NCBI GenBank assembly: GCA_949373085.1
Contig: CASICJ010000024.1
Span: forward strand, 1-64,000
Source: an uncultured Verrucomicrobiales bacterium
Lineage (GTDB): Bacteria > Verrucomicrobiota > Verrucomicrobiia > Verrucomicrobiales > Akkermansiaceae
DNA length: 64,000 bases
Reading direction: 5' to 3'
Shown: positions 4,852 to 26,817 of the stretch, piece after piece
Layout: every line of letters begins with the position of its first letter
Position numbering within the stretch: position 1 is the first letter of the stretch
The notes under the pieces: generated by a model
The model's input: the letters and a program-made list of their open reading frames with translations, nothing else
What the model was told of the DNA's origin: nothing
The model's database searches: none
Made by a program: the position numbers and the translations under genes

Positions 4852-6296
4852 ATATCGATCACGTAGCCGCCCTTATTGTTGACCGCTTCAGCTTCATCAA
4901 CATGGATCCAACGGATGGAGTAGTTTTTCCCCCACGAGTCACTAACGGCGATTTCATTGGTCTCTTCGTTGTAACCAATGATCATACAGAGGTGGAAGTT
5001 AGCTTTGGTCTGTAATACTTCAGAGTTCTTTTCGGCTGCGATTGCAATCTTTGAAGCGTAGTCCGTCCAGTTAGTGACATTACGCCTGGCCCGAGTTCGG
5101 GCATTTGCGACTTGATTGTAACCGGGCAGGCTGCACATCTGCCATAAGATTGGAACTCCCTTATCGATGTATCTTTTGAGCTTATTGGGAGCAAGTGACT
5201 TGAGTGGGATCTCACGCGCAGTGCGACCTCCTTTGCTCCGTGTCGTGAAGGCAACTTCTTCGTAGAGTTTTTGGGTGTTTGTTCCTCCACCTCCTTCGGT
5301 TGCGAGCGTTGCGAGAAGATACATGTCGGAAGGAACTCCGGCGTGTCGCATCGCACGCTCGAAGGTGGCAGGTGCACAATATCCTTTTGGGCCTTGGTCT
5401 ACCATGGGGATGTTCTTTATCTGAACATCGCCATTATCTTCATGGGACACGTTCTTTTTGAGGCGTGCTTTGATTTCGCCATCGCTCACACGGGAAAAAC
5501 GACCTCCACCGTCGGCGAACGAGGCTCGGACAATACTGAGTCTCACATATTCTTCTTTTACGTGCGCTAAAAGAAAGGAATGGCCGTTCCAATCCCAGCG
5601 CTTGACTTTGTGCTTATCATTACCCTGGCCGAGCATCCGCTGTTCGGTTGGCTCGCCGAGCACCGATGTGATGGTTCTTGCGATAGATGCTTCATCATAC
5701 ATCATTGCACCTTCGAGGGTGTTACGATCAATCTCTTTTCCGTTATTTTTGAAGTGGTCTTCGCCCGCTCCCGCAGTGCTAAGGGAATCACCTTTATTAG
5801 AATAAATAATAGAGAGTGAAAGCGTCCGGCCTTCATGATCGCCATAGGTTACGACGGTTTTGGGTTTCGCTCCAGCGAGGGAATAAGATCCCCGCGTATA
5901 GAGCCGATAGCTACTGGTGAAGGGTGTTTCTGACTCAGTTGGAAGGCGGAGTCGCCGGGCGACATTGCGAGCAGGTTCATTCCAGATATTACCATTGCTG
6001 GCAAAGAGTTGGTGGCTGAGAGCTTCGTTCAGCAGTTTGAGGTGTTTCTCAACCTTCTCTCGATGGGCCGTCCAAGTGTTTCGTATATCGTTGCGGGACA
6101 CTTCAGACAGATAAGCCAAGGGGGTTTTGAATTCCTGTCCATCGGAGCGCCTTAGGAGCGCAACTTCCTTTTCTAAGTTGAGGAGCTCAACACGAAGCTT
6201 GTCGGTGCCGTTGGCCTCCTGAAGAGTGATCAAAGGCTCAGAATTGGCTGCGAGAGTGACTAGGCAGAGGGTAGATGTGATCTTGCGAAAGGGCAT
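4848..6296 (-). CDS. Exported C39-like papain-fold peptidase with N-terminal SHD1-like domain
   Basis: The 482-residue product has a short N-terminal hydrophobic stretch (ITSTLCLVTLAANS), suggesting export. Residues about 34-75 (LRVELLNLEKEVALLRRSDG...TPLAYLS) resemble the SHD1 module common in exported Planctomycetes/Verrucomicrobia proteins. The middle is unassigned. The C-terminal 190 residues look like a C39/papain-like cysteine peptidase: IPMVDQGPKGYCAPAT gives oxyanion Gln301 and nucleophile Cys307, FHLCMIIGY gives His435, and VSDSW gives Asp453. The triad therefore seems intact. The substrate is unknown. It is convergent with the EEP gene, sharing its stop tetranucleotide, and is followed on the other side by the tmRNA gene. 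Confidence 0.75.
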   Translation of the reverse strand: MPFRKITSTLCLVTLAANSEPLITLQEANGTDKLRVELLNLEKEVALLRRSDGQEFKTPLAYLSEVSRNDIRNTWTAHREKVEKHLKLLNEALSHQLFASNGNIWNEPARNVARRLRLPTESETPFTSSYRLYTRGSYSLAGAKPKTVVTYGDHEGRTLSLSIIYSNKGDSLSTAGAGEDHFKNNGKEIDRNTLEGAMMYDEASIARTITSVLGEPTEQRMLGQGNDKHKVKRWDWNGHSFLLAHVKEEYVRLSIVRASFADGGGRFSRVSDGEIKARLKKNVSHEDNGDVQIKNIPMVDQGPKGYCAPATFERAMRHAGVPSDMYLLATLATEGGGGTNTQKLYEEVAFTTRSKGGRTAREIPLKSLAPNKLKRYIDKGVPILWQMCSLPGYNQVANARTRARRNVTNWTDYASKIAIAAEKNSEVLQTKANFHLCMIIGYNEETNEIAVSDSWGKNYSIRWIHVDEAEAVNNKGGYVIDI

Positions 6297-8431: not shown

Positions 8432-9589
8432 CTAGAATTCGGTCGCTACGCTCTTGGCAATTTTCTGATTGGCTGCAGTCATTTTACCGACGTGCTCCTT
8501 GTCGGGATTTTCCATTTCATCGAGGAGGCCCCGACGCCGTGACTTGTTTCGCTGATAGGCACCGCAGAGGTGAAAGCCGATGCAGCCGGGATTTTCAAAT
8601 AGGGCATTTAGCGTGTTGGCATACCAAACACCGTTGTTAGCCTTAAAAAGGCCTTCGCTCTTGGAACGAACTCCTGCCGCGTCAGCGAGTAACACGGGTT
8701 TTCCGGTTTTCTTGTGCCACTCGTCGAGATGCATTAATGGATTCCGAAAATCCTGGAAGGATAGCACATCGACATAAGGCAGAGCTTCTTCGTAGACCTC
8801 GGGAGGCAAGGGCGCGTTCGCTTCGTAGCGATCGCCAAGGATGAGGTGATGAGGGTCGTATCGGCGAATCGCATCGTGGGTCGTCTTGTAGTAGAGCTTC
8901 GCCAATTCGCGGAGTTCTTTGCGGCCGGTTTCGGTCTTCAGGCGCTCGGGGTCGAACATGGGGCCACGCCATGCGTTATGTTCCCGCTCATGGACCCATG
9001 TGGGACAGTCACTGTAAAAATAGCCGATCAGGTTCCTCTCCTCGCTCAGCTCGGCACACTGGGAACGCGCTACGTAGTCGCACCATTCCTTCCAGTCCTC
9101 GCTGCGGAAGTCAAAGTGCACGGTGTGTTTTTCCCACTGGTGCGATTCGATGAAGGGCAGCAAATGGCAATAGGGCATGTCCAGTGTGCGATACTCGTCG
9201 ATGGTGAACGCGCGTGAGTGCCGCCACTGTTTAACGGTGACCTCCTGCACCCAACCCACCGTGTTGAATCCCCAGGAGCGAAGGTTAGGCGCGACAGATT
9301 CCTTAATCCACTTGATTGTGCTACCGTCGTACTTGTCCTTCCAGATTTTCAGATTCTCCGGGTAGCGAAGGCTGGCAGGATCGATGTGATTCAAGCCTAT
9401 CGTGAAGAAAGGCCGCCCATCAGATGTGAGGAGGAACCAGTGTCCTTTACGCTTTCCTAAGGTGAAGTAGCCGTTTCGTTTCGCTTGGGTGGTTGGACTA
9501 GCGCCCTGCGAAAAGAGCTGCGGAATCCCTAGTCCCAGCCCAGCCGAGATGGAAAGTCCAGTGGTGAGGAATTGTCTTCGATTAGGCAT
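8432..9589 (-). CDS. Tat-exported TIM-barrel glycoside-hydrolase-like protein (agarase-like)
   Basis: The 385-residue product opens with a twin-arginine signal (MPNRRQFLTTGLSISAGLGL). The mature part starts GYFTLGKRKGHWFLLTSDGRPFFTIGLNHIDPAS and continues with WGFNTVGW, LIGYFYSDCPTW, HHLILGDRYEANAPLP, VDVLSFQDFRN and GKPVLLADAAG. This pattern of strand-end acidic residues is that of a (beta/alpha)8 glycosidase, close in style to GH50/GH86 agarase-like proteins. Family and catalytic residues cannot be fixed by eye. Next to a sulfatase it probably acts on a sulfated polysaccharide. A palindrome at 9657-9672 lies upstream of its start. Base composition is GC-richer than in the flanking housekeeping genes. 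Confidence 0.65.
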   Translation of the reverse strand: MPNRRQFLTTGLSISAGLGLGIPQLFSQGASPTTQAKRNGYFTLGKRKGHWFLLTSDGRPFFTIGLNHIDPASLRYPENLKIWKDKYDGSTIKWIKESVAPNLRSWGFNTVGWVQEVTVKQWRHSRAFTIDEYRTLDMPYCHLLPFIESHQWEKHTVHFDFRSEDWKEWCDYVARSQCAELSEERNLIGYFYSDCPTWVHEREHNAWRGPMFDPERLKTETGRKELRELAKLYYKTTHDAIRRYDPHHLILGDRYEANAPLPPEVYEEALPYVDVLSFQDFRNPLMHLDEWHKKTGKPVLLADAAGVRSKSEGLFKANNGVWYANTLNALFENPGCIGFHLCGAYQRNKSRRRGLLDEMENPDKEHVGKMTAANQKIAKSVATEF

Positions 9590-9651
9590 TGACGAGGCAA
9601 GGATGAAGTAAGTGGAACTCTACAGCCAGCATTGCGAAACACGTATTGGAA

Positions 9652-9672
9652 GGCAATGACAAGATCTTGTCA
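9652..9672 (-). promoter_or_regulatory. Operator-like palindrome upstream of the glycoside-hydrolase-like gene
   Basis: TGACAAGATCTTGTCA at 9657-9672 is a perfect 16-bp palindrome. On the minus strand it is followed by ATTG-C, as in the copy at 13734-13754; 19 of 21 positions agree. The near edge is 62 bases before the start codon at 9587-9589. It is probably the binding site of a dimeric regulator. Confidence 0.6.
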
Positions 9673-9679
9673 GCGCGGG

Positions 9680-12127
9680 CTATTCTTTCCCGTCCATCAG
9701 GTAAGCTATTAAATTGCGAATCTCGCTTGCGGACAGAGAATCGAGTAGACCCGGGGGCATTAGGGAAATGGGTAACTCCTCACGCTTGAGAACGTCCTCC
9801 TTCAAGATAGAAAATTTTTTTCCATCGGGCCCGACATAGGCCTGGGCTCTTCCCTCTTGCCCAAGGATGAATCCCACTTGCGTCTTTCCGTCCCTGTTCG
9901 TGATCGATTGAGGGCGGAAGTAGGGAGCCACTTCGGCATTCGGATTGAGAATATGTTCAAGCAGCCAGGCTTGTCCGGTGTCACCTTGCTGGCTGATCGT
10001 GGTCAAGTCCGGCCCGACCTTGGTCCCGCGTCCGTTCATGGCGTGACAGCTCGAACAATTTGCGAGACGGCGGTGAAAGAAGAGACGGCGTCCCACCTCG
10101 GGATCGCTCTGGCCAGTAACTTTTCCGAGCATCGCTTCCCAGGCAGCGATATCATCGGGGTCCGGTTTCTCCGGAAGTTCGCGAGTCGCTAGGCCAGCGG
10201 AAACGAGCGTGCGGGTTGCTTCGACGGAGACTATCTTGATCTTTTCCTTCGCTAACTCTTTCAAAAGCGCCTGATGGTCGCCGGCATATGACGCGAGACC
10301 AGCAATGGCGTCGGCTCGGACTTTCGGAGGCAGTGAGGCATCCGTCGCAGCTTGTGAAAGCGGGCCTCCCGCCACAAAATCCGAGTGAATCGCAAGACAC
10401 CGAATGGCCTCCTTCTGGAGTGGTAGGATTCCGGATTTTGCAAGTGAAGAGAGCTTCGCGATGGTGAAACCTGGATGATTAATCGGAACGCTCTGCAGGG
10501 CAAGCGTCCGAACCCGCGCTGACTTGTCAGAGTTGAGCGCAAGAGCCAAGAGCGTGTCTCCCGGCGAGAACTCTTTCTTCAAGTTTCCGCTCACTTCAGC
10601 AAGAGCGGTAACGACCGCAAGCAAATCGCGGCGCTTGAGATCATCGTTTTTAAGCTGTGCCGCGAGGGCCTCGCGATGCTGGCTGAGCCCTTCATCAGCA
10701 ATCCACTTAATAGCGACGTAGCGAACATCGGAATGCGCGTCTTTGAGTAGCTCGGGAACAAGCTTGGCGTTTGCTTTGGCATCAGCACGCTTGAGAGCGA
10801 CAGCATAATGAGCGCGAGCTGTCGGATTGGCCTCAGCCTTCCAATCGAAGCTGTCGAGAAGATCCTGCTGTTGACGCAGAATCTCCATTGCTTCCGTGCG
10901 AACGTAGGGATCAGAATCACCCAGGCGAGTGAGGGCCAGGGTAGGAGCCAGCGCCTCCTTGAGAGGTCGAATGCGAAGCGAAAGGTCGACGGGTTTCTTC
11001 AGGGAAACTTTCCAAATGCGGCCCTGTCCGTGAACTGGATAGGAAAGGTTGACCCAATCGGTAAAGTAGAGGGCTTTCCTGTCCGATGAGTAGGAGAAGT
11101 GAACGGGACGAAAATTGTCCGGACCGCTGATGAATGGCTTACGACCGGCCACAAAGGAAGCTCCCGATTTTTTGAGTGGATGCAAGTCAATCCGGTTGTC
11201 TGTCCAGGAAGCGGAAAGAAGATTCTCGGCGCCGTAAGGGACCAAGCCACACGCCGCTTCACCTAGTGAGCCGATCATGCCGAGCGTCCCTGGATTCCTC
11301 CCATACCATTCAACGAGCGGGTGCCGGCCGGATCGCCCGTAGCGATATTCATAACCGAAATCCGCTCCCGGAATGATGTGGAGAAGACGATTGGGCGGTG
11401 TGCTGTTGGGATCGTTGTCTGTCGAAAAGAGATTCCCGTCGAGATCATAGGCCATACCGAAGGCATTCCAGTGCCCCGTCGAAATACGCTCGAGCTGGCT
11501 GCCATCAGTCCGGCACCGGTATGTCGAACCACCCTCCCCACCCCCAGAAATCCGGAGATCGTCGGACCCAACAAAGGTGTAGTCTACACCAAGATTCTCC
11601 CCGAACCCGAAGGAAAGCACCTTGGGATTTGCCGGATCGATCGCGAGACCGCCCACACCGTTGTGCGGGTAGTCGCCTTCAGTTTCACAAGTCACCAGAA
11701 TCTCAGGATCACCTTCCGCTTTTTCAAGCGTGGCCGCATTGGGAAATCGGCCGATGAACCATCGTGTCGAGACATAGAGATGTCCATCCTCTCCAAAGAG
11801 AAGGTCCGTGCTGTAGACATGTCCCTCATAGAAGACGGATCGCTTGTCGGAAACTCCGTCCCCGTCCGTATCTTCAAAAATGAGAATACGATCCGTTTCC
11901 GGCCCGACGTATTTCTTCGTTCGCTTGTGAGTGTGGTTCTCTTGAACGAAAACTCGGCCATCCGGCGCGACCGCGATGCCAATGGGCGTGACGATGTCAG
12001 GGGTGGAGGCGAAAAGAGAGATTGACTCGATATCCGGGTGATGGGCTTTCGGAACAATTTCTTCCGCCTGGACAGGTATGACGAATGGACAGAAGAGACC
12101 TAGCAGAATGGGTGAGCTGATTTTCAT
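9680..12127 (-). CDS. PVC-type membrane dehydrogenase-like protein with HEAT repeats and C-terminal cytochrome c domain
   Basis: The 815-residue product has a signal peptide (ISSPILLGLFCPFVIPVQA). An N-terminal six-bladed beta-propeller of the PQQ-glucose-dehydrogenase-like type follows: VTPIGIAVAPDGRVFVQEN, DTDGDGVSDKRSVFYEG, HNGVGGLAIDP, GHWNAFGMAYDLDGNLFSTDNDPNS. The middle (about 395-660) consists of helical HEAT-like repeats. The C-terminal ~125 residues form a PVC-type cytochrome c domain with heme site CSSCH at 691-695 and an SLMPPGLLDSLS segment. It probably oxidises a carbohydrate or alcohol in the periplasm. Its ATG overlaps the sulfatase stop (ATGA at 12124-12127), so the two are translationally coupled. 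Confidence 0.85.
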   Translation of the reverse strand: MKISSPILLGLFCPFVIPVQAEEIVPKAHHPDIESISLFASTPDIVTPIGIAVAPDGRVFVQENHTHKRTKKYVGPETDRILIFEDTDGDGVSDKRSVFYEGHVYSTDLLFGEDGHLYVSTRWFIGRFPNAATLEKAEGDPEILVTCETEGDYPHNGVGGLAIDPANPKVLSFGFGENLGVDYTFVGSDDLRISGGGEGGSTYRCRTDGSQLERISTGHWNAFGMAYDLDGNLFSTDNDPNSTPPNRLLHIIPGADFGYEYRYGRSGRHPLVEWYGRNPGTLGMIGSLGEAACGLVPYGAENLLSASWTDNRIDLHPLKKSGASFVAGRKPFISGPDNFRPVHFSYSSDRKALYFTDWVNLSYPVHGQGRIWKVSLKKPVDLSLRIRPLKEALAPTLALTRLGDSDPYVRTEAMEILRQQQDLLDSFDWKAEANPTARAHYAVALKRADAKANAKLVPELLKDAHSDVRYVAIKWIADEGLSQHREALAAQLKNDDLKRRDLLAVVTALAEVSGNLKKEFSPGDTLLALALNSDKSARVRTLALQSVPINHPGFTIAKLSSLAKSGILPLQKEAIRCLAIHSDFVAGGPLSQAATDASLPPKVRADAIAGLASYAGDHQALLKELAKEKIKIVSVEATRTLVSAGLATRELPEKPDPDDIAAWEAMLGKVTGQSDPEVGRRLFFHRRLANCSSCHAMNGRGTKVGPDLTTISQQGDTGQAWLLEHILNPNAEVAPYFRPQSITNRDGKTQVGFILGQEGRAQAYVGPDGKKFSILKEDVLKREELPISLMPPGLLDSLSASEIRNLIAYLMDGKE

Positions 12128-13704
12128 TTCAATTCCTTTCTCAAAGGTTCGTCCACCACCATGGCCTCGGGGAAATCGGCGGCCTCAACTCCCCCACGAT
12201 CACGAAGGCGCTTGTTCTGCTGACGTCCGCGTGGCGGATTCATCGGAATGGCCATGCCACCGAGTTCGTCCATCATTTCATAGAGCCGGTCTTGCATCTG
12301 ATCACGGACCTTCGCGAATTTGGGCTCGTGGATCAGGTTGTTCTGTTCCTTGGGATCGGCCTGAATATCGAACAGCTCGTCCGTGTCCCAGACCCCGTAG
12401 TAAGTCGTGTATTTATACTGATCCCCCCGCAGCGAAAAGTGGGTCGGTGTCATCGGATAGTTTTGCTCCCAGTAGTAGGCATAAAGAAAATAATCCCGCC
12501 AGGGAATCTGCTTGCCGAGGGCCAGGGGCAGGAAACTCTGACCGTCCATGTGAGGAGACTTCTCTAATCCCATGACTTTCATGACGGTAGGAGCGATATC
12601 GATATTGGCGACGACTTCCTCCACGACCGATCCGCCTGGAAAGAGTTCGGGGCACTGCATGAGCATGGGCACGCGGCTGGAGGTCTCGTAGGCGACTCGC
12701 TTGTCGATGAGGCCGTGCTCGCCAAACATATAGCCATTGTCGCCCATGTAGATGACTAGGGTTTCCTCGTGGATCCCCATCTTTTTCAGCTGCTCCATCA
12801 CCGCGCCAATACTGTCGTCGACAGACCTAAGGGCTTCGCAGTAACTCCGAAGGAAGGACTCCGCAGAGCTGCCGGTATGTAGCGGGAAATCCATACCATG
12901 CCAGCTGTTGCGTTGATCGAGAAGCCAGCGCGGACGGTTTTTAAGATTATTCGAGAGGAGTTCACTCGACTTCGGGTAAGTGAAAGGTTCCTTTGCAAGT
13001 GAGCCATCATATTTCGGCTCCGGGGTGAAGGGTCCGTGAACAGCTTTGTGGGAGAGGTAGAGAAAAAAGGGTTCATCCTTGTCGCGTTGCTGCTCTAGGA
13101 AATTGATGGCGTAGCGTGTCAGCAATGGAGTGATGTAGCCGTCCTGGGGAACCCGTTCACCATTCACGTTGATGGTGTAGGCATCGTTCGGCGGGTAGTA
13201 TTTCCCCTGACCCTTGAAGCTGACCCAGTAGTCGAAACCGGGTCGAGGATTATCGTTTGCCTGTCCCATGTGCCATTTTCCGACAAAGCCGGTGGAGTAG
13301 CCTGCTTTCTGCAAATACTGCGGAAAAAAAAGAGTGCCCTCCGGAACCATCCGCTGGTTGTCGATCACGCGGTGACGAAAGGTGTAGAGCCCGGTTAAGA
13401 TGGAAGCCCGGCTCGGCGAGCACAACGAGGTGGTGACAAAGGCATTCTTCAGGTGAACACCGTCCCGCGCCATGGCATCCATGTTCGGCGTCTTTGCAAG
13501 CGGATGCCCCATGAAGCCCATCGCGTCGTAGCGATGATCATCGGACAGAATAAAGACGACATTGCGAGGCTTCGCATCCAGGATGATCGCCGGAACGACT
13601 TCCTTGGGGACAGGAATTACTTCGGCGATAGTTGCACCTGGGAGGATTGCGATGGCTGCAACAGCGGAGAGGAGGGCCAGACGGTTAAGGATGGATGCCA
13701 GCAT
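12124..13704 (-). CDS. Exported type I (formylglycine-dependent) sulfatase
   Basis: The 526-residue S1-family sulfatase carries a signal peptide (LLSAVAAIAILPGATIA). Metal-binding DD lies at 55-56 in FILSDDHRYDAMGF. The activation motif CSPSRASILTG starts at Cys95, the residue to be converted to formylglycine. GKWHMG, GDNGYMFGEHG and a C-terminal LFDIQADPKEQNNL also match S1 sulfatases. The style is close to mucin-desulfating/N-acetylglucosamine-6-sulfatase types, but substrate cannot be read. No formylglycine-generating enzyme gene lies in the window. It is the first gene of a two-gene operon with the PVC cytochrome protein. An operator-like palindrome lies about 30 bases before its start. 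Confidence 0.93.
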   Translation of the reverse strand: MLASILNRLALLSAVAAIAILPGATIAEVIPVPKEVVPAIILDAKPRNVVFILSDDHRYDAMGFMGHPLAKTPNMDAMARDGVHLKNAFVTTSLCSPSRASILTGLYTFRHRVIDNQRMVPEGTLFFPQYLQKAGYSTGFVGKWHMGQANDNPRPGFDYWVSFKGQGKYYPPNDAYTINVNGERVPQDGYITPLLTRYAINFLEQQRDKDEPFFLYLSHKAVHGPFTPEPKYDGSLAKEPFTYPKSSELLSNNLKNRPRWLLDQRNSWHGMDFPLHTGSSAESFLRSYCEALRSVDDSIGAVMEQLKKMGIHEETLVIYMGDNGYMFGEHGLIDKRVAYETSSRVPMLMQCPELFPGGSVVEEVVANIDIAPTVMKVMGLEKSPHMDGQSFLPLALGKQIPWRDYFLYAYYWEQNYPMTPTHFSLRGDQYKYTTYYGVWDTDELFDIQADPKEQNNLIHEPKFAKVRDQMQDRLYEMMDELGGMAIPMNPPRGRQQNKRLRDRGGVEAADFPEAMVVDEPLRKELK

Positions 13705-13733
13705 TCAGAAGCTTGTCCGATAGTGCAGAGGCT

Positions 13734-13754
13734 GACAATAACAAGATCTTGTCA
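13734..13754 (-). promoter_or_regulatory. Operator-like palindrome upstream of the sulfatase operon
   Basis: On the minus strand this reads TGACAAGATCTTGTTA followed by TTGTC. It matches the site at 9652-9672 in 19 of 21 positions and has one mismatch in the 16-bp palindrome. Its near edge is 29 bases upstream of the sulfatase start codon. Confidence 0.6.
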
Positions 13755-14277: not shown

Positions 14278-17200
14278 GTGCGAATTCGTGGCGTTTTTTC
14301 TGCCTCACTGTTCTTTATGGGTCAGTTCCTCGCCGCGGCGGAAGATACTCCGGACTTCAACCGTGAGATTAGGCCTATCTTGGCGGAAAATTGTTTTCAT
14401 TGTCATGGACCAGATAAGAAATCGCGTAAAAGTGGGTTGCGATTGGATACGTTCGAAGGAGCAAAAAATGGAGGAGAGTTTGCTGAAGCTGTGGTGCCAG
14501 GGAAGCCAGAGAGGAGTGAATTAATTGCTAGGATTCATTCCGGTGATCCAGATGAGTTGATGCCACCTCCTGATTCCAAGCGAACACTCACCAGCAAGGA
14601 AAAGGAACTTTTGCGAAAGTGGATTGCATCCGGCGCAAAGTATGAAGAGCACTGGGCTTGGGTGGCGCCGGTTCGGGGGGGGATCCCGAAGGTTCAAAAT
14701 TTAGGAAGTATCAATAATTCGGTAGATGCCTATTTACTTCGTCGACTTGAGCAAGAAGGATTAAAGTTTTCAGAGCGTGCCTCGGCGGGAAATCTTTTAC
14801 GTCGTCTATCGTTAGATTTAATCGGGCTGCCTCCCACTCCGGAAGAATTAGAAGGATTTTTGAAATCCGAAAATTACGAACTTGAGGTGGATCGATTACT
14901 TAAGTCGCCTCGGTTTGGGGAACGATGGGCGCGGCATTGGCTCGACTTGGCGCGCTATGCAGATTCAAATGGTTTTCAGGCAGATCAACTTCGACCGTCT
15001 TGGGCTTATCGCGACTGGGTGATTAATGCTCTCAACGAAAATATGCCATATGATCAATTTACGATCGAGCAGCTGGCCGGAGATTTGCTCCCTAATTCCA
15101 ACCTAAGACAAAAGATAGCGACGGGCTTTCATCGTGCCGTCACTTGCAATGTTGAAGCGGGTGTGAGTCCAGAGGGGAATCGAGTGAATCAGGTTTTTGA
15201 CCGTGTCAATACCACGGCTACGGTCTGGTTGGGAATCACCTTGGAGTGTGCGCAATGCCACGATCATAAGTTTGATCCATTTTCGATGAAGGATTATTAT
15301 TCGTTATTTTCTTTTTTTAATAATACGCCGCTTGAAGTTCAGCTTCCTTCAAACAAGAAAGATGTCTCGCATGATTTCATTGGACCGTATTTGGATTTGC
15401 CACTTTCACCAGAGCAGGCAGAAGAGGCCGAAAAGATTGATGAGGAAATTGCTGCTTTGGAAAGAGAACGTGATGAGTTGAGCAAGGTTTCAGGTCCAAA
15501 GTTTCAGGCGTGGCAGGAATCAGTGGTAGCGGCGCTGGAAAATCAACCGGAGTGGAGGCCTATGACGGTGAAGTCGTTTGTTTCCTCGGGTGGCGGAGAG
15601 TATCGAATTTTAGAGAATGGCTCCGTGTTATTGACCGGGGAAGTTCCAGATAAGACAACTTACACCGGGGAATTTGAGACCGATCTTCAATCGATTACTG
15701 GTTTTAGATTAGAGACTCTAACCCACCCGGATTTACCGGGGAAAGGACCGGGTCGGGGAGATGTTATACGTCCGAATTTTGTTCTCCATGAATTAAGAGT
15801 AGCGATAAAAAAAGACGGGAATGAAAGCCAACTGAAATTTCAGAGTGCGGAGGCTGACTTTTCACAAAAGAACTGGGATGTCGCAGGAGCTGTTGATGGC
15901 AAGGCAAAAACCGGTTGGGCGATAAGCCCTCAGTTTGGAAAGCCCCATTTTGCGACCTTTCGATTAGATTGTCCAATTGAGAGTCTGCGTGAATCAAGTT
16001 TAGTTTTCTGGCTGGATCAAAACTTTGGTAAGGGAAGGGTGATTGGGAATTTGAGACTTTCGGCAATTTCGGACCCTGTCGGAACAGCAGCTTTGCCGCA
16101 GGGCGTTGTAAGTGTTTTGAAGAAGCCGGAAGGGAAGAGGAATGCGAAGGAGACCGGAAAGCTGAAGGCTTACTTTTTGAAATCTAATGTTAGGTTTTCG
16201 ACGCTCGAAAAAAGGCTGGCTCTCCTTACAAAGGAAAGATCCACCCTCAAGCCTGATCGGACTTTGGTGATGGTTGAATTAGCGAAGCCGCGCAAAACCC
16301 GGATTTTAAAGCGCGGTAATTTTCTTGCTCCTGATCAATTGGTTATGTCGGCAACTCCGGAGCGGCTTCCGAAGTTAGAAAAACCTTCTAATCGGTTGGA
16401 TATGGCGAAATGGCTCGTGCGCCGGGATAATCCACTTACGGCGAGGGTCGCGGTAAATCGTTGGTGGTCCGAGTTCTTTGGGGGTGGGATTGTGGCGACC
16501 CTTGAAGATTTTGGAACCCAATCTGAGCCACCCACTCATCCCGAATTATTGGACTGGCTTGCGGTCGAGCTGATGGAATCAGGCTGGAATATGAAGCATG
16601 TTTTGAAGGCTATTGTAATGTCTCAGGCGTATCAGCAATCTTCGCGGGTGGCTCCTGAATTATTAGCGAAAGATCCGCGTAATCTTTTTCATGCAAGGGC
16701 CCCTAGGTTCCGGATGGATGCGGAACGGCTTCGTGACAATGCTTTGGAGATTTCGGGTTTACTTTCGAGTAAGATGTATGGGAAGCCGATCATGCCGTAT
16801 CAACCGAATGGTTTGTGGAGGCAGACCGGTCGAAACGAGCCGAAGTGGGAGGAGCAAAAAGATGAAAATCGCTGGCGACGAGGGGTGTATATTGTCTATC
16901 GTCGCGCTGCTCCGTATCCTAGTATGGTGAATTTTGATGCGCCGGACCGCAGCTCGTGTACGGTTCGGCGACCCCTCACTAATACGCCAAGCCAAGCTCT
17001 TACGATGCTGAATGATCCAGCTTATGTCGAGATGGCCTTAGCGTTTGCGGATCGAATTCTGACTGGGAGTGGAGATGTATCGAAGCGCGTCGATTATGCC
17101 TTTCGGTTGGCTTTGTCTCGATCAGCGTCGCCAAGCGAGGTGACAATTCTTGAAGAATTGATTCGAGATCGTAGTGAGTATTATCGCGACCATCCGGTGA

Positions 17201-17331
17201 AAGTTTCCGCGATCTTGAAGAATCCTAAGTTTTTCTACAAACCAAACCATAAGAACCTAATTGAATTGGCGACATGGTTTCACGTCGCCAATGTTCTTCT
17301 TAACCTTGATGAGACACTGACTCGGAAATAA
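14278..17331 (+). CDS. Exported PSCyt1-DUF1549-DUF1553 protein (planctomycete/verrucomicrobial cytochrome)
   Basis: The 1017-residue product starts at a GTG and has a signal peptide (VFSASLFFMGQFLAAAED). A PSCyt1 cytochrome-like domain follows, with heme site CFHCH at 39-43, and VVPGKPERSELIARI and LMPPPDSKRTLT. A DUF1549 domain spans roughly 120-360 (RRLSLDLIGLPPTPEEL, ARHWLDLARYADSNGF, AQCHDHKFDPF). A variable middle part includes a lectin/carbohydrate-binding-like segment. DUF1553 is the C-terminal ~300 residues (WLVRRDNPLTARVAVNRWW, RPLTNTPSQALTMLNDP). Reactions of this family are not established; roles in carbohydrate oxidation or degradation are proposed. It is followed 3 bases later by its usual partner, a DUF1501 gene. 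Confidence 0.93.
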   Translation: MRIRGVFSASLFFMGQFLAAAEDTPDFNREIRPILAENCFHCHGPDKKSRKSGLRLDTFEGAKNGGEFAEAVVPGKPERSELIARIHSGDPDELMPPPDSKRTLTSKEKELLRKWIASGAKYEEHWAWVAPVRGGIPKVQNLGSINNSVDAYLLRRLEQEGLKFSERASAGNLLRRLSLDLIGLPPTPEELEGFLKSENYELEVDRLLKSPRFGERWARHWLDLARYADSNGFQADQLRPSWAYRDWVINALNENMPYDQFTIEQLAGDLLPNSNLRQKIATGFHRAVTCNVEAGVSPEGNRVNQVFDRVNTTATVWLGITLECAQCHDHKFDPFSMKDYYSLFSFFNNTPLEVQLPSNKKDVSHDFIGPYLDLPLSPEQAEEAEKIDEEIAALERERDELSKVSGPKFQAWQESVVAALENQPEWRPMTVKSFVSSGGGEYRILENGSVLLTGEVPDKTTYTGEFETDLQSITGFRLETLTHPDLPGKGPGRGDVIRPNFVLHELRVAIKKDGNESQLKFQSAEADFSQKNWDVAGAVDGKAKTGWAISPQFGKPHFATFRLDCPIESLRESSLVFWLDQNFGKGRVIGNLRLSAISDPVGTAALPQGVVSVLKKPEGKRNAKETGKLKAYFLKSNVRFSTLEKRLALLTKERSTLKPDRTLVMVELAKPRKTRILKRGNFLAPDQLVMSATPERLPKLEKPSNRLDMAKWLVRRDNPLTARVAVNRWWSEFFGGGIVATLEDFGTQSEPPTHPELLDWLAVELMESGWNMKHVLKAIVMSQAYQQSSRVAPELLAKDPRNLFHARAPRFRMDAERLRDNALEISGLLSSKMYGKPIMPYQPNGLWRQTGRNEPKWEEQKDENRWRRGVYIVYRRAAPYPSMVNFDAPDRSSCTVRRPLTNTPSQALTMLNDPAYVEMALAFADRILTGSGDVSKRVDYAFRLALSRSASPSEVTILEELIRDRSEYYRDHPVKVSAILKNPKFFYKPNHKNLIELATWFHVANVLLNLDETLTRK

Positions 17332-17334
17332 GAG

Positions 17335-18774
17335 ATGAATCAAAACCCATTTCTCACCCAGAACCGCCGGTCTTTTCTTCAAAAGAGCGGATTTGGTTTT
17401 GGAAGTGCCGCACTAGCTTCATTGATCAATCAGGATGCTGCGGCTGCTGATGATGATCCTTTGGTAAGGCTCGGACTGCATCATTCTCCGAAGGCGAAGC
17501 GGGTGATTTACATTCATATGGTCGGAGCTCCGTCGCATCTCGATCTGTTTGACTTCAAGCCGGAGTTGCAGAAAAGAACGGGCGAGCTTTGCCCTGATGA
17601 GTTTTTTGATCTGAACCAACTGGCTTTCATTCGCGAGCAACCCAATCTTTTGGGTACGCCAAAGGACGAACGTTTTTCGTTTAAAAAATGTGGTCAGTCG
17701 GGGACGGAGATTTCGAATCTTTTGCCAAACCTACAGGGTATGGCGGATGAAATGTGCTTCATCAAAACCCTCCACACTGAACAGTTTAATCATGCTCCAG
17801 CTCAAATGTTTGCGCTGACCGGGTTTGAGCGTTTCGGGCGGCCCAGTATCGGGTCCTGGACTAGCTATGGATTGGGGAGCGAGAACCAAAACCTGCCGGG
17901 CTTCGTCGTTTTAATTACCGGCCAGGTTCTTGGAGCTGGAAATAGTGCTTTTGGGAGTGGATTTCTTCCAACAATTCATCAAGGAGTGGAGTTTCGTTCG
18001 AAGGGAGATCCAGTGCTCTACTTGTCTAATCCGGATGGGGTGTCCCATCTTGATCGAAAGCTGGTAGTGGATGCGGTAAAGGATCTTAATCGGGTCGCGT
18101 TTGATGATGTTGGGGATCCTGAGATTTCGACCCGAATCAGCCAGTATGAGATGGCTTATCGGATGCAGACCAGTGTGCCAGAATTAATGGATATTAAGAG
18201 TGAGCCTACGTATATTCATGAGATGTATGGGACGAAGCCTGGCGAGAGCAGTTTCGCAAACAATTGTTTGCTGGCGCGTCGTTTGGTGGAGCGCGGTGTG
18301 CGATTCGTGCAGCTCTTTGATCAAGGTTGGGACCATCATGGCGGAGTCTTTGAAAATCTTCCGAAAAAAGCTAAACAAGTTGACCAGCCGATTGCTGCTT
18401 TACTCAAGGATTTGAAAGAGCGAGGTCTTCTGGAGGATACGCTTGTCGTGTGGAACTCCGAATTTGGACGAACCCCGATGGCTCAGGGTGCCTCTGGTGA
18501 TGGTTCAAAAATAAGTGAAGCGGGCCGGGATCATCACAAGGAGGCTTACACGGTATGGATGGCGGGCGGGGGAACTAAACGGGGACACGTTTACGGAGAG
18601 ACCGATGAGCTTGGATATGGAATCGCTAAAGATCCGGTCCACGTTCATGATTTTAACGCCACGGTTCTTCACTTATTGGGAGTTGATCACGAGCGGTTGA
18701 CCTTCCGCTATCAAGGAAGACAGTTTCGCCTGACTGATGTTCATGGGGAGGTGAAAAAAGGGGTGCTTGCATAA
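17335..18774 (+). CDS. Tat-exported DUF1501 family protein
   Basis: The 479-residue product starts with a twin-arginine type signal ([21 protein letters not shown]). The DUF1501 body is related to the alkaline phosphatase/sulfatase fold: [106 protein letters not shown] and [20 protein letters not shown]. The AG spacing to the upstream gene is only 3 bases, so they form an operon. Pairing with DUF1549/DUF1553 proteins is the rule in this phylum. Substrate and metal content are unknown. Confidence 0.93.
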
Positions 18775-25743: not shown

Positions 25744-25749
25744 TTGATC

Positions 25750-26817
25750 ATGCCTCCTCTCAGAATTCTTTCACCATCTGAACAAGTTGCAGATCATCTT
25801 AAAAGCGAGCTTTTGCGTGGGCGGTGGATGAATTCGATTCCGGGCGTGCCAAGCCTCGCTGCGGAAATGGGGGTTAATCGAAAGACTGTGGATGCGGCAT
25901 TGAGGCAATTGGACTCAGAGGGGATTTTAATTCCGCAGGGGGCAGGCCGAAAGCGCCTGATAGGTTTTTTACCGGAAGATCGGAGTCCAGCGCCGCTGAC
26001 GCTTGGGATCCTTCTTTATGAAATGTCCGATAAGCGGATCGATTACATTCTTGAGATCCAGCATATGTTGATGGAGGCCGGGCATGCCCCTTTTTTTGCT
26101 TCAAAGTCTTTGGTTGATCTTTCTTTAGATGTGAATCGTGTCAGTCGGTTGGTGAAGACTACTGAAGCAGATGCTTGGATTGTGGTTGCGGCTTCTAGAT
26201 CGGTTCTCGACTGGTTCGCCTGTCAGGGTTTTCCAACTTTTACTCTTTTTGGAGGTTCGCGTGATCGGCGTTTTGCAGGTGCAGGTCCGAATAAAAATCC
26301 AGCGTATCGCGAGTGTGTTAGTGCTCTTATTGAGCTCGGTCATCGCCGAATAGTTTTGCTAGCGAAAATCCAGAGGCGGAAGCCAATTCCTGACGAGTCG
26401 GAGCAGATTTTTTTAGATGCTCTAGAAGAAGGGGGAGTTGAAATTGGGGAGTATCACTTGCCAGATTGGAGTTATCGAAAGGAGAGTCTCTTGTCTTGTC
26501 TAGATTCGCTTTTCAAGGTGACACCCCCGACAGCTCTCATCATTCAGGAGGCTCCGGTGTTTGCAGCGGTCCAACAATTTTTGGCCAATCGGGGGCTAAG
26601 AGTTCCCGATGATGTTTCGCTTATCTGCTCTGATCCAGATCCAACCTTTGCGTGGTGCGAACCCACTATTGCTCATATAGCTTGGCGTTCACGACCGATA
26701 GTTCGGAGGATCATTCGTTGGGCGGATAAGATCAGTCGCGGAAAAAAAGATTTTGTGAAAAGTTTTGCCAACGCGGAGTTTGTCGAGGGTGGTTCAGTAG
26801 GGGTTGCGAAAGATTAA
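25750..26817 (+). CDS. Hybrid transcriptional regulator: GntR-type HTH plus LacI-type ligand-binding domain
   Basis: The ~355-residue product starts with a GntR-like winged helix (SPSEQVADHLKSELLRGRWMNSIPGVPSLAAEMGVNRKTVDAALRQLDSEGILIPQGAGRKRLI). From about residue 85 it continues as a periplasmic-binding-protein-like domain of the LacI/GalR kind (LTLGILLYEMSDKRIDYILEIQHMLMEAGH, ALIELGHRRIVLL, VPDDVSLICSDPDP). This architecture is known in sugar regulators such as AraR. Its position, divergent from the DUF6288-YdjY operon with a 121-base shared spacer, suggests it controls that operon in response to a sugar or glycoside; this is inference. The ATG at 25750 is preferred over a TTG at 25744. 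Confidence 0.88.
   Translation: MPPLRILSPSEQVADHLKSELLRGRWMNSIPGVPSLAAEMGVNRKTVDAALRQLDSEGILIPQGAGRKRLIGFLPEDRSPAPLTLGILLYEMSDKRIDYILEIQHMLMEAGHAPFFASKSLVDLSLDVNRVSRLVKTTEADAWIVVAASRSVLDWFACQGFPTFTLFGGSRDRRFAGAGPNKNPAYRECVSALIELGHRRIVLLAKIQRRKPIPDESEQIFLDALEEGGVEIGEYHLPDWSYRKESLLSCLDSLFKVTPPTALIIQEAPVFAAVQQFLANRGLRVPDDVSLICSDPDPTFAWCEPTIAHIAWRSRPIVRRIIRWADKISRGKKDFVKSFANAEFVEGGSVGVAKD

Follow-up and report, generated by a model that had tools for sequence, protein, structure and literature searches.

What do two nearly identical palindromes do in front of a block of sulfatase, heme-protein and glycoside-hydrolase-like genes? The question arose from a 64,000-nucleotide stretch of DNA from an uncultured Verrucomicrobiales bacterium, referred to here as the window. 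Sulfatase genes can number from dozens to hundreds in PVC bacteria, and an earlier note on this DNA had taken the palindromes as operators of one dimeric regulator controlling a small regulon for a sulfated-polysaccharide pathway. From comparisons across genomes we consider that the palindromes probably serve as class II activator sites for a dimeric, galactan-induced response regulator of the NarL/LuxR type, one that certain marine bacteria from two phyla have next to comparable genes.

The two palindromes and their genes

Both sites were found at the coordinates claimed for them (Table 1). The first, TGACAAGATCTTGTCA, is a perfect palindrome and the second differs from it by one base. The sequences at 9652-9672 and 13734-13754 agree in 19 of 21 bases and end 62 bp (site 1) and 29 bp (site 2) before the start codons, also as claimed. 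The description of a 21-bp palindromic motif was correct as regards the repeat, but palindromy does not extend beyond the 16-bp core. Similarly, the sites do lie upstream of both minus-strand genes, while the split into two transcription units is something that we infer, because site 1 begins only 7 bp past the stop codon of the preceding same-strand gene (9680-12127).

Table 1. Features of the sulfatase block and its predicted control elements, in window coordinates
Feature	Positions	Strand	Context or basis
Operator 1, perfect 16-bp palindrome	9657..9672	-	Between heme-protein gene and GH50-like gene; ends 67 bp before start codon
Operator 2, 16-bp palindrome, one mismatch to operator 1	13739..13754	-	Ends 34 bp before sulfatase start codon
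Predicted -35 TTGCCT, directly after operator 1	9651..9656	-	Comparison of 18 core sites
Predicted -10 AATGCT; predicted transcript start ~9621	9628..9633	-	Comparison of core sites
Predicted -35 TTGTCA, directly after operator 2	13733..13738	-	Comparison of 18 core sites
Predicted -10 CAAGCT, 17 bp past -35; predicted transcript start ~13703	13710..13715	-	Comparison of core sites
Sulfatase (PF00884, SGSH_C), first in operon	12124..13704	-	Domain and structure matches
PVC-type heme-binding CxxCH protein (DUF7133, TIGR02604, TIGR02603, HEAT)	9680..12127	-	Domain matches
GH50 beta-agarase-related protein, 385 aa, without Pfam or NCBIfam match	8432..9589	-	Related to 4bq4

The sulfatase and heme-protein genes overlap by 4 bp and therefore probably form one operon. 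The structure matched by the 385-aa protein, 4bq4, is a GH50 beta-agarase (E 9e-10), and among the best solved relatives of the sulfatase are a mucin-desulfating sulfatase, a GlcNAc-6-sulfatase and an exo-L-galactose-6-sulfatase. These relatives, together with the GH50-like neighbour, suggest porphyran/agar-type galactans as the substrate of the block. Sulfatase orthologues of about 80% identity are present in both Verrucomicrobia and Planctomycetes, which suggests exchange between the two phyla. On the plus strand, a divergent pair of genes (14278-18774) encoding a PSCyt1/PSCyt2/PSD1 cytochrome protein and a DUF1501 protein begins 573 bp from the sulfatase start and has no strong motif of its own.

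Judged by the window alone, chance occurrence of the palindrome pair is only moderately unlikely. A pair of 16-mers, each palindromic at 7 or more of 8 positions and agreeing with each other in at least 15 of 16 bases, arose in 1 of 100 dinucleotide shuffles of the window; at least two matches within 3 mismatches of the 16-mer, a cruder test, arose in 7 of 100. It is the evidence from other genomes that makes the pair convincing. The earlier note had proposed a scan of the whole genome for upstream enrichment as against chance-level occurrence. In G000, the window's own genome (3.41 Mb, 81% complete), neither refuting outcome appeared: these two upstream sites were the only strong places. Under a model whose training set included both, they scored E 6.7e-5 and 3.9e-4, and the next place scored E 0.136.

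Recurrence of the motif and the promoter layout

Six other genomes of Verrucomicrobiota and Planctomycetota carry the motif (G006, G144, G390, G391, G392 and G393), in the neighbourhood of GH50-like, sulfatase, TonB-receptor or PVC-cytochrome genes. The congener G006 has three copies, located before a DUF7133 gene, a gene for a 1065-aa GH50-like protein (E 9.6e-17) and a sulfatase. Its gene order is unlike that of the window, and still the copies precede genes of the same set; between the sulfatase and its copy lies what is apparently left of the beginning of the window's GH50-like gene. Apparently broken GH50-like genes between motif and sulfatase were seen at two loci, L066:10167-12053 (G006), where only the start remnant is left, and L194:1607-4173 (G391), where residues ~190-337 are unmatched. 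In G393 the motif lies beside a gene for a PSD3/PSCyt1 protein. Five of the six places found genome-wide in G392 with at most 2 mismatches fall within 19.3 kb. Sites in that genome precede TonB-receptor, GH5-like, FG-GAP, enolase-like and oxidoreductase genes, and for one site (L238:12477) no clear downstream gene was found.

A pattern built from five sites (the two of the window and the three of G006) was searched against 79 sulfatase-bearing loci (1.23 Mb), allowing 3 mismatches. Matches were obtained in L133 (G006 itself), L134 of G390 (Rubripirellula) and L194 of G391 (Verrucomicrobiales), with weaker matches in L196 and L199, while the reversed-pattern control gave none in the same loci. 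The matches at L196:5439 and L199:5441 have 3 mismatches each; the two loci are nearly the same and their sulfatase is more distant (48% identity). Across 386 genomes of the order, a scan yielded 15 distinct places in 11 genomes, against 2 for the control. Apart from those in G000 and G006 there are ten: GH50-like genes adjoin three of them (two in G144; one in G153, apparently identical with genome G391), five fall within long ORFs and two have no clear placement. In a model search of 24 genomes the only matches below E 0.002 were the 14 training sites, for which the search is circular, and the other 18 genomes held nothing comparable (best E 0.0115). A loose scan with half-sites only was too unspecific (20 matches versus 13 in the control). 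In the upstream regions of orthologous genes from 16 loci, 0 of 22 exceeded the 99% background, which itself contains some site copies. Since the motif is absent before most of the sulfatase orthologues examined, it would seem to track the regulator and not the enzyme.

Alignment of 18 core sites showed the palindrome to be followed at the -35 position by TTG in 15 cases and by TAG in three. This conservation is partly by construction, because TTG belonged to several of the search patterns; the first five sites, from which the pattern came, were picked independently of it. Counting from the base after TTG/TAG, A is found at +22 in 14 of 18 core sites and T at +26 in 16 of 18, and 0 of 20,000 random shifts were as good. 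A and T at these positions are the best-kept places of the -10 hexamer. With one site for each orthologous group (14 sites) the two positions agreed in 22/28, again with 0/20,000 shifts as good, whereas the opposite side of the palindrome reached at best 11/28. The 14 model sites alone gave 24/28 (0/20,000). Within the one-per-group set, G392 alone gave 12/14 (7/20,000 shifts as good); a site adjoining the -35 with a -10 at constant spacing was found outside G392 as well, where the signal of 10/14 is weaker (198/20,000). T is also frequent at +16 in the same count (15 of 18 sites), five positions upstream of the -10 hexamer, and is perhaps an extra promoter feature of these phyla.

The choice of sites bears on these counts. 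The seven G392 sites came from a scan allowing 4 mismatches, two of them (L238:7772 and L239:12922) being chosen after gene positions had been viewed, and the matches of that scan in L244, L245 and L246 stayed outside the analysis. Two doubtful sites belong to a 20-site count and not to the core: one in G114 lies close to the end of its contig, and one in G080, 53 bp upstream of a PVC-cytochrome ORF, overlaps other ORFs. Four weaker places also lie outside the core, namely L239:8862 and L243:6049 (4 mismatches each), L242:3261 (2) and L196:5439 (3; L199 has the same sequence). None of the four has both the A and the T, and with all four added the counts are A 14/22 and T 17/22, with 0/20,000 shifts as good.

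The resulting layout has TTGnnn as -35, 17 bp of spacer and the centre of the palindrome near -43.5, which fits the position of a class II activator. Operator 2 lies so near the start codon that the sulfatase mRNA would be leaderless, starting at the ATG. A generic consensus promoter scan listed neither predicted promoter of the window, as expected if both are weak and activator-dependent, although this is no proof.

A kinase and response regulator at the sites

In agreement with the earlier note, no regulator gene lies inside the sulfatase block. The binder that the note had put forward, a GntR/LacI hybrid (25744-26817), gained no support: tblastn (E 1e-5) found no homologue in 10 loci of motif-bearing genomes, 9 of which carry the motif, and motif matches near the hybrid in the window are at chance level only. 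A better candidate is a NarL/LuxR-type response regulator accompanied by a histidine kinase. Between copies 1 and 2 of the motif in G006 lie genes for a HisKA_3 histidine kinase with an F5/8 type C domain and for a response regulator of this type. Overlapping searches of 27, 241 and 19 genomes added orthologous kinases (47-51% identity) from G390, G392 and G393, and all four genomes with such a kinase carry the motif. In G006, G390 and G392, three genomes of two phyla, the pair is located at the motif itself. The palindrome of G390 begins 23 bp past the stop codon of the regulator, and the 19.3-kb cluster of G392 holds the pair as well.

The copies differ in their state. In G393 kinase and motif are on different contigs, and the contig ends within the regulator gene, so that the DNA-binding part is unseen. 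The kinase of G392 has two in-frame stops and its regulator is split over two frames; sequencing errors or decay of this pair may be the cause. The kinases of G006 and G390 contain F5/8 type C domains and that of G393 showed none, while the test of G392 covered the C-terminal part only. The recognition helix of the regulator reads HTV[IT]NH in G006, G390 and G392, versus [NSD][TSK]H in the seven nearest relatives, at positions that contact DNA in NarL. No orthologue of kinase or regulator was found in the window's own genome (81% complete), including the rest of the window's contig, and in G391, which has two sites, the best kinase is 33% identical.

Mode of control, alternatives and known systems

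The comparisons show where the sites lie, that they recur next to related genes, that the kinase and regulator accompany them in three genomes, and that the -10 follows at a constant distance. Binding, activation, the inducer and the presence of such a regulator in the window's organism are inferred. A red-algal-type sulfated galactan or its fragments would be sensed by the histidine kinase, whose N-terminal part contains F5/8-type C (discoidin, carbohydrate-binding-like) domains and which would phosphorylate the response regulator. The dimeric regulator would then bind the 16-bp palindrome directly upstream of the weak -35 (TTGnnn) and help RNA polymerase to use the weak -10, 17 bp further on, which would turn on the sulfatase/heme-protein operon in concert with the GH50-like gene. 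Operator-like sites for a dimer, as the earlier note had predicted, are supported by an inverted repeat that recurs before putatively co-regulated genes. Its small regulon for sulfated-polysaccharide use is supported as well.

A palindrome by itself names no family of regulator, and both the window's own genome and G391 have sites with no close orthologue of the pair. The sites could then be operators of a different dimeric regulator, whether GntR/LacI, another family or a paralogous response regulator, with the pair just a frequent neighbour. Against this, three genomes from two phyla have the pair right at the motif and, for GntR/LacI, the 10 loci searched lack a homologue; we regard such a regulator as unlikely. 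It is less likely still that the same regulator represses, the palindrome beside the -35 blocking RNA polymerase until a signal arrives. Position alone cannot tell the sign of control, and operator 2 is very near the start codon. However, the -35 and -10 elements (CAAGCT and AATGCT for the latter) are weak and unlisted by the consensus scan, as would suit promoters dependent on an activator. Activators typically keep a single fixed spacing across many genes, and a single site-to-promoter spacing is what is found here in many genes. The arrangement therefore reads as an activator site beside the -35 rather than a repressor operator.

A transcription terminator, the end of a mobile element or a chance palindrome would be in keeping with the 7 bp between a stop codon and site 1 and with the modest statistics of the pair within the window. 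Only two strong copies exist in the genome, though, and in other genera and phyla the motif again precedes related genes, with the -10 at a fixed distance, which makes these origins very improbable. For an intrinsic terminator in particular, no T-run follows the palindrome and a terminator scan lists neither site.

Keeping to activation by a NarL/LuxR-type regulator, a wider reading is conceivable, which we put forward tentatively and consider rather doubtful. The operator and promoter may form a portable module that moved with the discoidin-sensor kinase and the NarL-type regulator between Verrucomicrobiota and Planctomycetota and came to stand in front of different galactan genes in each genome. 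Some hosts, the window's among them, may have lost the original pair while keeping the sites in use under another controller, and the sulfatase mRNA would be leaderless.

In the polysaccharide utilization loci of Bacteroides, hybrid two-component systems unite sensor, kinase and an AraC-type DNA-binding part in a single protein. The system proposed here resembles them in that a membrane sensor would switch on a local polysaccharide locus, and differs in that the kinase and the LuxR-type regulator are separate proteins. The response regulator P0001 consists of a receiver and a GerE domain, as in the NarL/VraR/DevR type, and matches VraR (5hev, E 6.8e-29) and NarL (1a04), although it reaches no cut-off of the NCBIfam models of that group; the site TGACAWGATCATGTCA is unlike the NarL heptamers. 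Pontiella agarivorans, also of the PVC group, similarly has two-component genes beside sulfatase and glycoside-hydrolase genes: a histidine kinase (PF07730, PF02518) and a response regulator (PF00072) lie near hydrolases, sulfatases and TonB transporters, and the authors suggest substrate sensing (PMC10880615). The likeness is one of description; its passages on these genes name no binding site, promoter or regulon (PMC10880615). Among literature titles and abstract openings, a sample with subscription papers mostly outside it so that absence is no proof, we found no operator or mapped promoter for PVC sulfatases. The kind of system is known and this member is apparently undescribed. Given a specific site with its -35/-10 arrangement, and a regulator as candidate binder, the way in which the mostly uncultured PVC bacteria control their use of sulfated galactans would become directly testable, and the operator-promoter pattern would offer a way to find genes acting together.

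Palindromes of other kinds occur near related genes. Another kinase-regulator locus, L259, has its own palindrome pair matching in 15/16 bases, and L200 of the Opitutaceae genome G392 contains a palindrome, ATGAAACATGTTTCAT, at 5785, 8201 and 14678, two copies being exact and one having two changes. Both were set aside because neither has the TTG/-10 layout. The ATGAAACATGTTTCAT copies are located near a paralogous kinase-regulator pair of G392 and may belong to another regulator.
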